From contig JAJZCD010000002.1 in NCBI GenBank assembly GCA_021851735.1, positions 1-64,000 on the forward strand: a stretch of 64,000 nt of DNA. The letters are read 5' to 3'. Within the stretch, counting starts at the first letter, position 1. Each line of letters begins with the position of its first letter. Of the stretch, positions 2,905 through 12,108 are shown one piece after another. The position numbers and the translations under genes are program-made. Below the pieces are notes generated by a model, which searched no databases, was not told where the DNA came from, and saw nothing but the letters and a program-made list of their open reading frames with translations. The DNA comes from a bacterium (GTDB taxonomy: Bacteria > Patescibacteriota > Saccharimonadia > Saccharimonadales > UBA4665).

Positions 2905-3136
2905 TACCATTCAGTACTTTAGAGGTGCTGATGTAGGTGGCTCTAAGAAGAACGTTAAAAATTGAATAGTGCAAATCAACGTCAATTCACTTTTAAGTGA
3001 ATTGTTTTAAACAGTGTTTCTGTCTTTAGAATTATCTAAAGTGCAGAAACACAGTCAGTAATCAACTGAAGTTGAGACAAATTCTACTGATTAACGATGA
3101 TCATTAAGTCATTTAATGCAAAATCTTAATCTTTTT

Positions 3137-4667
<1,531 letters not shown>

Positions 4668-5095: not shown

Positions 5096-6862
5096 ATGAT
5101 CGGCAATTATCAAGGAGATCTGGTGCATTATCCAGGTGGGCGCCCACATGACAACTATAGGAAGTTGCAGCGCGTTATCGTTGTGGCTATTGCTGGCGTA
5201 ATGGGGGTGTTCGCAACAGGCGGTGGTGCTGTATTGGCAATGGGTGCTACTCATGCTGAGCGTGTTGCGCACTACGTGACGCATCAAGCTTGCCCAAGTG
5301 TCACAATAAACCATGCGCGATGCTTTGCTAGGGTTACGACGCACGGTGCGGCAAGTCCCGCCGTAGGAGCTGACTCAAGTGGGTTTTACGGTCCTGTGCA
5401 GTTTCATACGGCATACCAGCTACCGTGCACTCCTGGCGGTCCTGTGCAGGCTGTGTGTACTACTCCAAGCAGCTATGGGCCGGCAACGGTTGCAATCGTT
5501 GACGCTGGTGGTTACAGCAGTTCCAGCGGAACATTGCAAGACGATCTGCAGGCATACGATAGCTACTACAATCTACCGGCTTGCACGGCAGCAAATGGGT
5601 GTTTGACGGTTGTTAACCAGTCCGGCGCAACGTCTCCACTGCCACCGAATGTCAGCTCGGGTTGGAGTACCGAGATGGCTATGGACGTACAAGTGGCGCA
5701 CTTAGTATGTCAAACGTGCAAGATCGTACTTGTTGAAGCTAATGATGACACTATAGCGAATATTGCCGCAGCTGAAGCTACTGCGGCCAGCTATAACCCG
5801 GTGGCAATATCAAATAGTTGGGGCTCTAGTACTGACACGACTGCGTACGACAGCTATTTCAAACGAAAGGGTGTGGCTGTGCTTGCGGCTACGGGTGACG
5901 CAGGCACCGATACTAATGGGCAGAGTTGGCCAGCTGATATACCAGAAGTAGTTGCTGTATCAGGCACAACCCTTCAGTTGAACACGAACAATACATGGGC
6001 GAGTGAGACGCTTTGGTCGGGGTCTGGAGGTGGGTGTAGTGTGAACTATACGGCACCCAGTTGGCAAACTAGCCTGCCTAACTGGGCGACTAGTGGCTGT
6101 AGTAACGGTGGTCGGGCTTTTGGTGATATCGCTGCCGATGCTAACCCTAGTACTGGTGCGGCGGTCTATATAAATGGAGCTTGGTATGAAGTCGGTGGAA
6201 CCTCACTTGCAACACCACTTGTAGCGGCAATGTATGCCCTTGAGGGCGGTATGTCATCGTCAGTGAATGCGGTTGGTACGTTATATAAAAATTATTCTTC
6301 ATCGGTATTTCATGATATTACGTCAGGTAGTGATTGTACGGGCAGCAACCAGCTTAATTGTACTGCGGGGGTGGGATTTGATGTACCATCTGGTTTGGGT
6401 GCGCCGTACGGACTGGGTGCTTTCGTGGCCGGTCCGGCAGCGCCTTCGGGCCTGACGGCAAGTTATGTCAGTCAGAGTCAGATCAAATTATCTTGGACGG
6501 CAGTTTCAACCTCGAATGGCGTTGCGAGCTACCAGTTGTACCGGAACGGGTCACTTATTTATAGCGGCAGCAGTACATCGTACAATGATACCGGCCTGAA
6601 GGCAAATACCTCGTATTCCTATTACGCAACGACTACGGACAACTCTGGTAATGTTTCGGCGTTGTCTGAAGGAGTTACTGCTGGCACATTCTTGCCGGCA
6701 GACATAAACGAAGATGGGCACGTTAACCTCTTGGATTTTAGTGTATTAGCTAGTAAATATGGTCAGTCCGGCAGCTCACTTGGCCGCAGTGATATCAACC
6801 ATGATGGTACGGTTAACCTACTAGATTTCAGCCTACTAGCTAGCGCATATGGTACGGAGTAG
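5096..6862 (+). CDS. Secreted S53 (sedolisin-type) peptidase with FN3 and C-terminal type I dockerin-like domain
   Basis: Hydrophobic signal segment; STEMAMD (E...D), ATGDAGTD and GGTSLATP motifs of the S53 catalytic set; FN3 domain; two calcium-binding dockerin repeats DINEDGHVNLLDFSVLASKYG and DINHDGTVNLLDFSLLASAYG. Confidence 0.88.
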   Translation: MIGNYQGDLVHYPGGRPHDNYRKLQRVIVVAIAGVMGVFATGGGAVLAMGATHAERVAHYVTHQACPSVTINHARCFARVTTHGAASPAVGADSSGFYGPVQFHTAYQLPCTPGGPVQAVCTTPSSYGPATVAIVDAGGYSSSSGTLQDDLQAYDSYYNLPACTAANGCLTVVNQSGATSPLPPNVSSGWSTEMAMDVQVAHLVCQTCKIVLVEANDDTIANIAAAEATAASYNPVAISNSWGSSTDTTAYDSYFKRKGVAVLAATGDAGTDTNGQSWPADIPEVVAVSGTTLQLNTNNTWASETLWSGSGGGCSVNYTAPSWQTSLPNWATSGCSNGGRAFGDIAADANPSTGAAVYINGAWYEVGGTSLATPLVAAMYALEGGMSSSVNAVGTLYKNYSSSVFHDITSGSDCTGSNQLNCTAGVGFDVPSGLGAPYGLGAFVAGPAAPSGLTASYVSQSQIKLSWTAVSTSNGVASYQLYRNGSLIYSGSSTSYNDTGLKANTSYSYYATTTDNSGNVSALSEGVTAGTFLPADINEDGHVNLLDFSVLASKYGQSGSSLGRSDINHDGTVNLLDFSLLASAYGTE

Positions 6863-6865
6863 TCG

Positions 6866-8161
6866 TCATACTTTCTCAGGGCGCGGAATGTGTGAACGCA
6901 GTAGTACGAGTAGTTTCCTCTTATATGGGCGTAGTAGTAACGTTGCCAACACTAGGACTGTTACGCTTAGCAGTGCAATGATAGCTGTAGACCAGTCCCA
7001 GGCGCTTTGTCTGGAAACTGGCAAGATGACGGCAGCGGTTTGGAATACGGTTGAATTTGTCTTTATGTTGATTGCCGGGTTATTAACATATACGATGGCA
7101 CTGTAGGTTCTGTTGTTTGTTCTATACAGCAGGTGGTGTTCACCGGGGGCGACATTGGTAAAAGTCGCAACTCCGTTACTGTTAGTTAGGACCGTTTGTG
7201 CTCTGGAATGTAAGGTGACTTTTTGGTTAGCAATGGGGCGGTTGCCGTTTCCGAGTACGGTTACGGCTACAGTGTAACCTCTAGTTGTGAAGTGGTAGAT
7301 GTGTGTCTCGGCACGTGCGCCGTTCGAACTGACCGCTATAACTTGGTAGTAGTAGGTCGTCCCTGGTGTCAATGGTGACTGCCAACCCAATTTTAGTATC
7401 GCAGCTTTGGTACTGTCGGTGGTACTTGTTGTACTAGTGAGACTGTTGGCGCTAGTGCCATATATAGCGTGAATAATAACCTGCTGGTTACTTTCAACAG
7501 TCAATGTTGCCGTGGTTAGGCCAGTAACAACGTTACTAGTGCTGATATGGGGGGCTACGAGTGGCGTAACTTTATTTATGTTGTGGTTGGGTAACGTCGG
7601 AGTAGTGGCAGTACCCTTTGGTGGCGCATATGACGAGATGCTTCTGACCGGTGATGGCCTACTAGGCTGTTGTAGCGGAGGCACCGTGAGACTAATTATA
7701 CCGTCGGATACCGAAGGGTTGGTGTATGTGTTGGTGCTACTACTGGTGGCGTTGGCGTTACTAATAGCTAAAGTAGTAGATCCGCTTGAGGTGAGCGCAG
7801 TAAAATTCATGGTCGCAATTAGCGAGTCACTACTAACGCCACCCGACAAGTCGCCAAGTGCCAAACTAATGCTATTGCTGCCGATGCTTTTTTGCAGCTG
7901 TGCGGAAAAGGGTGAACCAGAAGTGCTGACACTGTTCAATCGTATCTGACTTGCATTGAAGGTGATCGTCGCTTGCACACCATTGATGGTTGTGCTCGGG
8001 TTAATACGCAGCGATACTGTTTCCGAAGTGCCAACCTGGAGATTGCTCGAGGATGGTGATATATAGATAACACCTCCGCTGGCAAATGCGGTCTGTAAGG
8101 GGAACAACGTGAGTAGGGTGCTAGTTAACAGTACGCCGGTTATTTTTTGTTTTATATGCAT
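6866..8161 (-). CDS. Membrane-anchored cohesin-like domain protein with FN3-like region
   Basis: Signal peptide, then cohesin-like region (VYISPSSSNLQVGTSETVSLRINPSTTINGVQATITFNASQIRL...LIATMNFTAL), FN3-like region, C-terminal TM helix plus basic tail. Confidence 0.75.
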   Translation of the reverse strand: MHIKQKITGVLLTSTLLTLFPLQTAFASGGVIYISPSSSNLQVGTSETVSLRINPSTTINGVQATITFNASQIRLNSVSTSGSPFSAQLQKSIGSNSISLALGDLSGGVSSDSLIATMNFTALTSSGSTTLAISNANATSSSTNTYTNPSVSDGIISLTVPPLQQPSRPSPVRSISSYAPPKGTATTPTLPNHNINKVTPLVAPHISTSNVVTGLTTATLTVESNQQVIIHAIYGTSANSLTSTTSTTDSTKAAILKLGWQSPLTPGTTYYYQVIAVSSNGARAETHIYHFTTRGYTVAVTVLGNGNRPIANQKVTLHSRAQTVLTNSNGVATFTNVAPGEHHLLYRTNNRTYSAIVYVNNPAINIKTNSTVFQTAAVILPVSRQSAWDWSTAIIALLSVTVLVLATLLLRPYKRKLLVLLRSHIPRPEKV

Positions 8162-8337: not shown

Positions 8338-8365
8338 TGGTGGGCGATGGAGGACTTGAACCACC
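8338..8365 (-). repeat. 28-bp duplicate of the tRNA-Ile 3' end (T-arm, acceptor, CCA)
   Basis: TGGTGGGCGATGGAGGACTTGAACCACC identical to 8424-8451. Confidence 0.9.
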
Positions 8366-8423: not shown

Positions 8424-8500
8424 TGGTGGGCGATGGAGGACTTGAACCACCGACCTCGTCATTATCAGTGACGCGCTCTAACCAGCTGAGCTAATCGCCC
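8424..8500 (-). tRNA. tRNA-Ile(GAT), CCA encoded
   Basis: Reverse complement GGGCGATTAGCTCAGCTGGTTAGAGCGCGTCACTGATAATGACGAGGTCGGTGGTTCAAGTCCTCCATCGCCCACCA gives a cloverleaf with a GAT anticodon. Confidence 0.95.
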
Positions 8501-10011: not shown

Positions 10012-12108
10012 TTAGTGTTTACGGTCAAACAGGCGTTTACGCTCGCCTGTAAGAATGATTAGACTAGCAAAAATGAAGCCGATGATTGGCAATAGGTAGC
10101 TTGTATCGTGTTGTGCAGAGCTCGGCTTAGTTGTTGTGAAAATGATGTGTCTGATTGGATTGACATGAGTTTCGAAAGCGGCTGTAGCCGTAGTAATAGG
10201 AGTAGCGGTAATGAGAGCGCTACTGTTGGTTGGCATGGTGTGATCATATCGGGGTTTGAAACTGGCCAGACGTTTTTGAAAGTCGGCTAACATTTTTTGC
10301 TGAGTTGCTGCCTGTATGGGATTCTTGGTAGGTGCGTTGAGGTTGTAACTAGCAGTTGGGCCGTCCGCGCTAGTAGTAGTGCCCATGCCGAAATTACCGT
10401 TCCATGTGCCGAATACGTTGATGAAGAGTACACCGAACCAGTTACTCAACGATAGACTGCTGTTTAGCATATTTAGGATATTGACTGCGGTCTGGGCGTT
10501 ACCTGTTGTGGCATTTCCAGCAGTAGTGTTATCGGATACAGTAGCGTCGCCACTAGTAGCGTGAAGGTTAACGTTGTTGATAATACCGAGATCTATGTTG
10601 TTGTTGACGGTATTCTTATCTAAGATTGCGGAGGTTGTGCCGCTGGAAGCGCTAGCATCAGTACTGGTTGGGCCACTGCCAAGCTCGGCTACGTTACTAC
10701 CGGGAGGTGCGCCCATAATTATGCCCACCCATTTACCAAGGACGTTCACATATATAAGTAGGCTATTCTTCCCGGTGAAGCTACTATTTGTGAGGTTCAT
10801 GAATGTTACGTTGGTGCTTGATTTGCCACTAGTGGCATTTCCAGCAGTAGTGTTATCGGATACAGTAGCTGCACCGCTGATAGCAGTACTATGTATAGCA
10901 TTAGTCACCGCTTCTGTGACGTTATTGTGCACGGCGTTTGTGTTACTTATATTAGTATCTGTGTTATTGCTGTTAATAGAAGATCCAGCGCTAGCTAATA
11001 ATTGGTTGAGGGTGCCCTGGGGAAGTAAGATGTTGCCGTTCAGATCACCGTTAATATTTATCGTGCCGATAAACGATTGCCCAGCATCTACGGAAGAGTT
11101 GATGAGATTCATTAGATTAACAACAGCGTCAGCATTGCCACTAGTGGCATTTCCAGCAGTAGTGTTATCGGATACAGTAGCGTCGCCACTAGTAGCACCA
11201 ACGTCTATGTTGTTAGTTATTCTTGCATTGGTTGTAGTACTAGCCGCCACGTTGGTTTGTAAGGTGCTTGCGCTCGTGCTTGTGGTGCTGGGTCCGGTGG
11301 CTAAGATGGCTGATGGGTTAAACATAAAATCACCGTTAACGTCGCCGTTTATATTAGCAGTAAACATCGTAGTGCTTGGACCAAATGCGTTGCTAGTAGA
11401 CTGCAGCATGTTGGCAACGGTTGAGATAGCTTGCGCGGTACCGGAAGTTGCTGATCCGCTATTTGTGTTCATGACAACGTATGCGTTACCGGTGTTTGCA
11501 TTAGTTGTAAGAGAGTTGGTCATAAGAATCCCTGAATTGTCGCTCTGGCCGTTATTGGTAGATGGAGTCACCGCACTGCCGATGCTATTGCTGCCGGTGG
11601 TTTTGGCGTTTACCATAGGCGCTTTGGCCTGACTTGTTGTGTTGGATGTACTACTAGGAGGTAATGCACTTGTAGTATTTGGTTTGCTTGTTGAAGTGGT
11701 CGTTGGACAATTGGTTACTAAGTTGGGTGTCGATTCTGGTGTGATACGGCTAGATATGAATACCTTCTTTGCAGGACTGTATACCCATTGGACCATGCTC
11801 CAGGTTTTGGTAGTACAGTCGTAAATATAATCAGGAGCGTATAGAGGAGTACGGGTACTAGTAGCGGGATTAAATACATAATATGGATTGGTCCATTCTC
11901 CAGCGTATTGGCCGCTACAATTATAGGTATATGTGCTGGCATCTGCTCCGGCCGGCCGGGTGATATTACTGTCACGAGAGGGTGTACAGGCACTTTTTGC
12001 GGCAAAGCTTGTGACGCTTGTGCCAAGTGGGGCGAGTATCGACAATACTAGAATCATGCTTGTCATGGATAAGGTTCGAAAATTTACGGCTAGTTTATGT
12101 AGCATCAT
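10012..12108 (-). CDS. Large repeat-rich surface protein with C-terminal TM anchor
   Basis: Signal peptide; repeated SGDATVSDNTTAGNATSGNA-type units; C-terminal hydrophobic helix and basic tail. Confidence 0.75.
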   Translation of the reverse strand: MMLHKLAVNFRTLSMTSMILVLSILAPLGTSVTSFAAKSACTPSRDSNITRPAGADASTYTYNCSGQYAGEWTNPYYVFNPATSTRTPLYAPDYIYDCTTKTWSMVQWVYSPAKKVFISSRITPESTPNLVTNCPTTTSTSKPNTTSALPPSSTSNTTSQAKAPMVNAKTTGSNSIGSAVTPSTNNGQSDNSGILMTNSLTTNANTGNAYVVMNTNSGSATSGTAQAISTVANMLQSTSNAFGPSTTMFTANINGDVNGDFMFNPSAILATGPSTTSTSASTLQTNVAASTTTNARITNNIDVGATSGDATVSDNTTAGNATSGNADAVVNLMNLINSSVDAGQSFIGTININGDLNGNILLPQGTLNQLLASAGSSINSNNTDTNISNTNAVHNNVTEAVTNAIHSTAISGAATVSDNTTAGNATSGKSSTNVTFMNLTNSSFTGKNSLLIYVNVLGKWVGIIMGAPPGSNVAELGSGPTSTDASASSGTTSAILDKNTVNNNIDLGIINNVNLHATSGDATVSDNTTAGNATTGNAQTAVNILNMLNSSLSLSNWFGVLFINVFGTWNGNFGMGTTTSADGPTASYNLNAPTKNPIQAATQQKMLADFQKRLASFKPRYDHTMPTNSSALITATPITTATAAFETHVNPIRHIIFTTTKPSSAQHDTSYLLPIIGFIFASLIILTGERKRLFDRKH

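Follow-up and report, generated by a model that had tools for sequence, protein, structure and literature searches.

A convergent protease and cohesin gene pair

The window (the whole stretch of DNA analysed here, 64,000 nucleotides from a tiny, host-dependent Saccharibacterium) carries two convergent genes between a 16S rRNA gene (3134-4666) and the genes for tRNA-Ile/tRNA-Ala. The + strand gene (5096-6862) is an ORF of 588 aa for a secreted S53 protease with an FN3 domain and a dockerin, and the - strand gene (6866-8161) is an ORF of 431 aa for a membrane-anchored cohesin protein. Both lie where the sequence-only reading had located them, with 3 bases (6863-6865) between their stops. The true protease start is probably GTG 5123, giving 579 aa; this start is favoured by a ribosome-binding site (AAGGAG) at 5112, although chance alone would produce a few such patterns in a stretch of this length.

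In the protease, a hydropathy scan finds an N-terminal hydrophobic segment (residues 24-42, 5165-5221, + strand) that may act either as a signal peptide or as a signal anchor. It is followed by an S53 peptidase core, recognised by its kumamolisin match (residues ~97-443, 5384-6424, + strand), and by an FN3 domain (residues 449-520, 6440-6655, + strand; PF00041 at 25 bits, which is at its cut-off). A phmmer search against the PDB matched kumamolisin at E=3e-23 across residues 172-441. E193 and D197 of the ExxxD motif (codons 5672-5674 and 5684-5686, + strand), the oxyanion Asp D268 (5897-5899) and S370 of the GTS motif (6203-6205) align with the kumamolisin catalytic residues and are invariant across the ten orthologs that make up the S53 dockerin set. 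The Glu-Asp-Ser catalytic triad and the oxyanion Asp that define the S53 family are thus present. The long pro-domain PF09286, an accessory feature that does not define the family, gave no Pfam match in the protease, and only ~50 aa separate the hydrophobic segment from the S53 core. The usual sedolisin pro-domain is therefore missing, and activation may differ from that of usual sedolisins, which self-process. The AF2 model of the protease was poor (pLDDT 45.7). Characterised sedolisins and kumamolisins are acid-active, and several sample-style names among the genomes (TL1, BP5, MAS4) may point to a mine waste origin. Outside the CPR, the nearest S53 cores in our scan (L151-L157, 32-42%) come mostly from Actinomycetota genomes, with one from Eremiobacteria. 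Since the hosts known for cultured Saccharibacteria are actinobacteria, a gain of the S53 protease by transfer from a host is conceivable.

The protease ends in a dockerin (PF00404 at 34.6 bits, cut-off 22.9, residues 535-582) made of two repeats, DINEDGHVNLLDFSVLASKYG (6701-6763, + strand) and DINHDGTVNLLDFSLLASAYG (6791-6853, + strand). As in type I dockerins, both Ca2+-binding loop-helix repeats (DxNxDGxVNxxD) are complete, and both have LL at recognition positions 10-11, which gives the domain two-fold symmetry. Positions 10, 11 and 17 are recognition positions of type I dockerins, where symmetry accompanies a dual binding mode. Across the dockerins of the lineage, the two repeats agree with each other far above shuffles at these positions (z 11.7 at position 10, 10.4 at position 11 and 10.7 at position 17), and not at position 4 (z 1.3). 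Core helix position 13 is likewise raised (z 9.5), so inter-repeat agreement is not exclusive to the recognition sites. Repeats that are alike at the recognition positions are as expected if both dockerin faces bind the same cohesin.

The convergent gene encodes, by our reading, a signal peptide (residues 1 to ~27, 8081-8161, - strand) with a K-rich n-region, a hydrophobic core and an AFA-S site, and the AF2 model places a helix there (3-18). The cohesin domain follows (residues ~30-160, 7682-8074, - strand; PF00963, AF2 model and Foldseek). Next come a beta-sandwich resembling FN3 or purple-acid-phosphatase-N domains (residues 205-293, 7283-7549, - strand; sub-threshold in Pfam, pLDDT ~81-92 in most blocks) and one resembling carboxypeptidase-regulatory or SpaA domains (residues 297-360, 7082-7273, - strand; PF13620 at 24.2 bits, below cut-off). 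The protein ends with a C-terminal TM anchor (residues ~390-412, 6926-6994, - strand; from hydropathy and the model) and a basic tail. The carboxypeptidase-regulatory-like sandwich, which is found in 30/76 cohesin proteins, comes in addition to the FN3-like region claimed earlier.

The cohesin assignment is borderline by PF00963 (22.8 bits by hmmscan, cut-off 24.1; 26.7 bits in the genome search). The domain scores 144 bits with a cohesin profile of the lineage, a profile that includes the window sequence itself. Searched against the PDB, this profile (73 sequences) matched almost exclusively cohesin chains (best E=6e-8), one match, 7urp, being labelled 'Ribonucleases G and E'. An AlphaFold model built from nine orthologs had a mean pLDDT of 70.5, with most cohesin-region blocks at 72-91, and most of its top Foldseek matches in the PDB were cohesins: Clostridium perfringens 2vo8 (TMt 0.80), C. 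acetobutylicum CohA2 (6kge; TMt 0.78, rmsd 2.3 Å), Archaeoglobus 2xdh (TMt 0.76) and CipA (1aoh; TMt 0.76). The modelled domain thus has the cohesin jelly-roll fold when compared with 6kge, 2vo8 and 1aoh. The domain calls of the sequence-only reading hold for both genes: a secreted S53 protease recognised from E...D, D and GTS motifs and ending in FN3 and a two-repeat dockerin, and, opposite, a signal peptide, a cohesin-like domain, an FN3-like region and a C-terminal TM. The cohesin fold of the N-terminal domain, on which that reading had staked itself, is borne out by the model.

Other features of the locus are recorded here as side observations. The 3' end of tRNA-Ile (8424-8500, - strand) is duplicated exactly, 86 bp apart (8340-8362 and 8426-8448), and the duplication adjoins the cohesin gene; the genome has these two copies only, and the duplication is a possible integration scar. 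The nearest ortholog locus (L142) likewise has tRNA-Ala/Ile close by. Further along, 10012-12108 (- strand) encodes a 698-aa surface protein with a signal peptide, a C-terminal TM and recurring 'SGDATVSDNTTAGNATSGNA'-type segments, which gave no Pfam match.

Dockerin and cohesin genes across Saccharibacteria

The window genome (1.13 Mb, 97.7% complete) yielded one dockerin and one cohesin, namely those of this pair; the search for other dockerin proteins, proposed by the sequence-only reading, thus detected none. We surveyed 295 genomes of the order, where a dockerin was detected in 84 and a Pfam cohesin in 57. Both modules occurred in 49 genomes (Fisher p=1e-24, overstated because genomes are counted as independent and not corrected for phylogeny), and a dockerin lay within 5 kb of a cohesin in 44 of these 49, so that chance adjacency of the two genes was rejected. 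When the lineage profile was used, a cohesin was found in 80 genomes, 57 of them also with a dockerin (p=7e-22, again with genomes counted as independent). Outside family f35, 53/59 dockerin genomes had a cohesin, and inside it 4/25 (lineage profile). A dockerin is therefore not always accompanied by a cohesin partner in the order, since most f35 dockerin genomes have no detectable one. Phylum-wide, among 380 genomes, a cohesin was present in 112, a dockerin in 149 and both in 76.

The same association emerged when 84,980 species genomes were scanned using no patterns other than those of S53. This search returned eight Saccharibacteria loci (49-66% identity), every one of which has a convergent SP-cohesin-TM neighbour; these loci partly belong to MAGs of genomes also in the order search, and the two sets overlap. 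In the family of the window, full-length S53-dockerin proteins occur in nine genomes, each paired with a cohesin gene. The exact pair was not seen in two other genomes of the window's genus: one (G117) has a cohesin-dockerin adaptor beside an anchor as well as two dockerin proteins that are unlinked to these, and in the other (G208, 87% complete) neither module was found. The pair recurs at every one of the eight orthologous loci and, carrying different cargoes, throughout the order; it was not seen in its exact form in these two genomes of the genus. Of the refuting outcomes named by the sequence-only reading, those open to testing did not occur, and its interpretation is supported. The more alike two dockerins are, the more alike their neighbouring cohesins tend to be (mirror-tree rho=0.47, above all 2000 permutations); when partners were swapped within families only, the permutation maximum was 0.365. 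This parallel divergence could be explained by shared inheritance of a linked pair alone.

From the domain identities, export signals, anchor topology, catalytic residues, gene pairing and order-wide recurrence read in sequence or structure, we propose that the two proteins are a cognate pair, in which the membrane cohesin would tether the dockerin-bearing S53 protease to the Saccharibacterial surface (probability roughly 80%). The S53 protease would be exported, and its C-terminal dockerin would fold with two Ca2+ ions, on which it presumably depends, and bind the cohesin at the N-terminus of the adjacent gene's product, which would sit in the cell membrane through a C-terminal TM helix. The enzyme would then be retained on the cell surface atop a stalk of two beta-sandwiches, not diffusing away, and could digest proteins at or near the cell lived on. 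The released peptides may feed an organism that we assume to lack most amino-acid synthesis.

The dockerin could instead pair with a cohesin made by a different organism, either the host or a community member, the neighbouring gene being there by coincidence. Small genomes often interact across species, and in ANME consortia each partner expresses cohesin/dockerin proteins (PMC10553843). Adjacency in 44/49 genomes with both modules and at 8/8 orthologous loci makes such a coincidence very improbable.

A more serious alternative concerns the N-terminus of the protease, which might be an uncleaved anchor that makes a cohesin tether redundant. Docking would then organise a protease held by its own segment, or secure the mature enzyme after self-processing from that anchor. 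The hydrophobic segment is long and follows a basic region of 26 residues (17 from GTG 5123), sedolisins as a family self-process, and three related proteins (L062/L063/L113) have no clear signal cleavage site. Furthermore, S53 homologs of genus g4 (G114, G220) have no dockerin and carry a long basic N-terminal segment and a TM helix, so an S53 protein can be anchored another way. We nevertheless regard this alternative as unlikely: cleavage is plausible at small-residue motifs of the window protein (AVLAMGA), and with so short a region before the core, self-processing of the normal kind is uncertain. The G114 and G220 genomes yielded neither a dockerin nor a cohesin, unlike the dockerin-bearing S53 proteins, which occur together with a cohesin gene. 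Dockerin-less S53 proteases with an N-terminal TM and a long basic tail lie beside a sortase-like gene at L185:1466-2737 and L186:1211-2485.

Cargoes and architectures in the order

In the fetched loci the polarity of the two modules is near-constant: the dockerin ends the secreted partner, and the cohesin follows the signal peptide of the C-terminally TM-anchored one. An N-terminal dockerin, right after the signal peptide, occurs in four genomes (G244, G014, G104 and G045; L141, L167, L169-L171, L175-L177). Proteins that combine cohesins with a C-terminal dockerin and have no TM also exist, and many adjoin an anchor cohesin gene. Among 74 dockerin proteins, Pfam found six subtilases, eight polysaccharide deacetylases, many Ig/FN3 arrays and LRR repeats. 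That the dockerin stays constant while the enzyme varies points to an exchangeable display system.

This diversity of cargoes bears on two further possibilities, that the protease cleaves or is regulated by the cohesin protein, or that its cohesin-like domain is a beta-sandwich stalk that binds no dockerin. The Pfam score is indeed borderline, and cohesin-like folds with other roles exist (PMC6030884). On the other hand, the same anchor accompanies proteases, deacetylases and Ig proteins with the dockerin as their common feature, the dockerin is symmetric at its recognition sites, and the model matches dockerin-binding cohesins, which together leave these possibilities improbable beside tethering.

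The most elaborate architectures were found in genus g8 (G097, G144, G170), where an anchor cohesin comes after a scaffoldin that bears three cohesins and a dockerin. The anchor cohesins of g8 form a separate clade (99% SH-aLRT), and a different dockerin type is present on the unlinked cargo, which includes GH25 lysozyme-type enzymes along with beta-helix and Ig proteins. Taken at the level of sequence, scaffoldin and anchor form what appears to be a two-tier, cellulosome-like layout in Saccharibacteria. A simple order-wide split into type I and type II cohesins was rejected: the cohesins of anchors and of scaffoldins cluster without falling into two clades (20 and 13 changes), and a clean split was seen in g8 only. 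The g8 loci themselves (L104, L109, L115) hold scaffoldin-like ORFs of 1000-1194 aa with at least three cohesins and a C-terminal dockerin, then the cohesin-TM anchor, and unlinked GH25 dockerin cargo lies at L162:2529-4148 and L165:3767-5320.

Multi-cohesin scaffoldins in some relatives suggest another purpose, in which the pair binds as proposed and serves a larger assembly or cell-cell adhesion, protease activity being secondary. Many cargoes of neighbouring pairs are Ig/FN3 arrays in which no enzyme domain was found, and an adhesin role is described for the cohesin/dockerin proteins of ANME and their sulfate-reducing partners (PMC10553843). However, the S53 active site of the window cargo is intact, and the window modules alone would build no larger assembly because one dockerin and one cohesin were found in the genome. 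We consider this purpose, like the N-terminal anchor above, a minority option. The sequence-only reading had called the pair a minimal system; this stands as a one-to-one arrangement in this genome, which is not unique to it, and does not extend to the relatives with multi-cohesin scaffoldins.

Returning to tethering, a broader version would have Saccharibacteria and other CPR share a modular system of membrane cohesins and exchangeable cargo for host contact or digestion, of which the window would be the simplest, one-to-one protease form. The cargo would comprise proteases, peptidoglycan- or glycan-active enzymes and Ig adhesins, with two-tier scaffoldins in some genera. We put this forward tentatively, at somewhat short of even odds for the whole. 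Such an order-wide tag-and-socket arrangement suggests a general way of holding tools on the surface and bears on the ways in which epibiotic CPR bacteria affect their hosts. If the pair works as read, reduced genomes would keep a plug-and-socket display platform in which the cargo alone needs changing.

In family f35, the dockerin proteins that were fetched are mostly without a cohesin neighbour. Large dockerin proteins at its loci L130-L135, two of them (L133 and L135) subtilase-LRR-dockerin proteins, are directly followed by proteins with a signal peptide, an Ig-like domain and a TM. These neighbours were rejected as cohesins (hhalign probability 2-12%) and are possibly a different socket for the dockerin.

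Relation to known cohesin-dockerin systems

Like clostridial cellulosomes (CipA-type and anchoring scaffoldins), the window pair has a C-terminal dockerin on an enzyme, a cohesin fold and predicted surface anchoring via the cohesin protein, and g8 relatives add a three-cohesin scaffoldin with a C-terminal dockerin beside a separate anchor cohesin. A cellulosome reading of the window pair was nevertheless rejected. The genome search gave a single cohesin in place of a multi-cohesin scaffoldin and a single dockerin in place of several plant-polysaccharide enzymes, and neither protein had a CBM match. Moreover, the enzyme is a protease and not a cellulase, the anchor is a TM helix and not an SLH or sortase attachment, and the genes are convergent. 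If true, tethering would mean that cellulosome-type assembly logic is used outside cellulose degradation. Cohesin folds outside cellulose degradation are also represented by Archaeoglobus 2xdh, a stand-alone archaeal module, and C. perfringens NagJ/GH84C 2w1n, part of a secreted glycosidase, neither of which is a dedicated anchor for one cargo.

Closer in its enzymes is the cellulosome-like complex of the Cloacimonadota Ca. Stygibacter, in which cohesins are predicted to hold dockerin-bearing peptidases (S8/S53-domain and C25) on the surface; it differs in its large, multi-cohesin, CBM-bearing scaffoldin, its surface-attachment CTD and its many enzymes (PMC8542988). Within the CPR, cohesin and dockerin genes are already known: Ca. 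Shapirobacterales (Microgenomates) have both modules, with expression reported, and theirs are read as a cellulose-degrading cellulosome with no 1:1 cargo-anchor pairing or protease described (PMC9123182). In a cultured Saccharibacterial epibiont, the envelope protein SEML1_0315 has a dockerin and is essential by Tn-seq; a cohesin partner is not mentioned there (PMC10633639). Text searches of open-licence papers, preprints excluded, gave no description of the pairing or of an order-wide anchor system in Saccharibacteria. What appears new here is the putative one-to-one display pair with a TM-anchored cohesin, plus the order-wide family of such anchors around it. The survey supplies many new candidate cohesin-dockerin pairs; the one in the window includes a protease from a family that is typically acid-active. 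If the pair is read correctly, action on the host surface becomes directly testable, a dockerin protein being reported essential in the cultured epibiont (PMC10633639).

A further CPR locus came from a genome of the same phylum outside Saccharibacteria (G360). At L178:3870-17356, five consecutive secreted dockerin proteins, with apiosidase-like, GH5-like, CBM6 and beta-helix domains, are followed by a scaffoldin with two cohesins and a dockerin, which by its domain content looks like a cellulosome-like cluster in a CPR genome.
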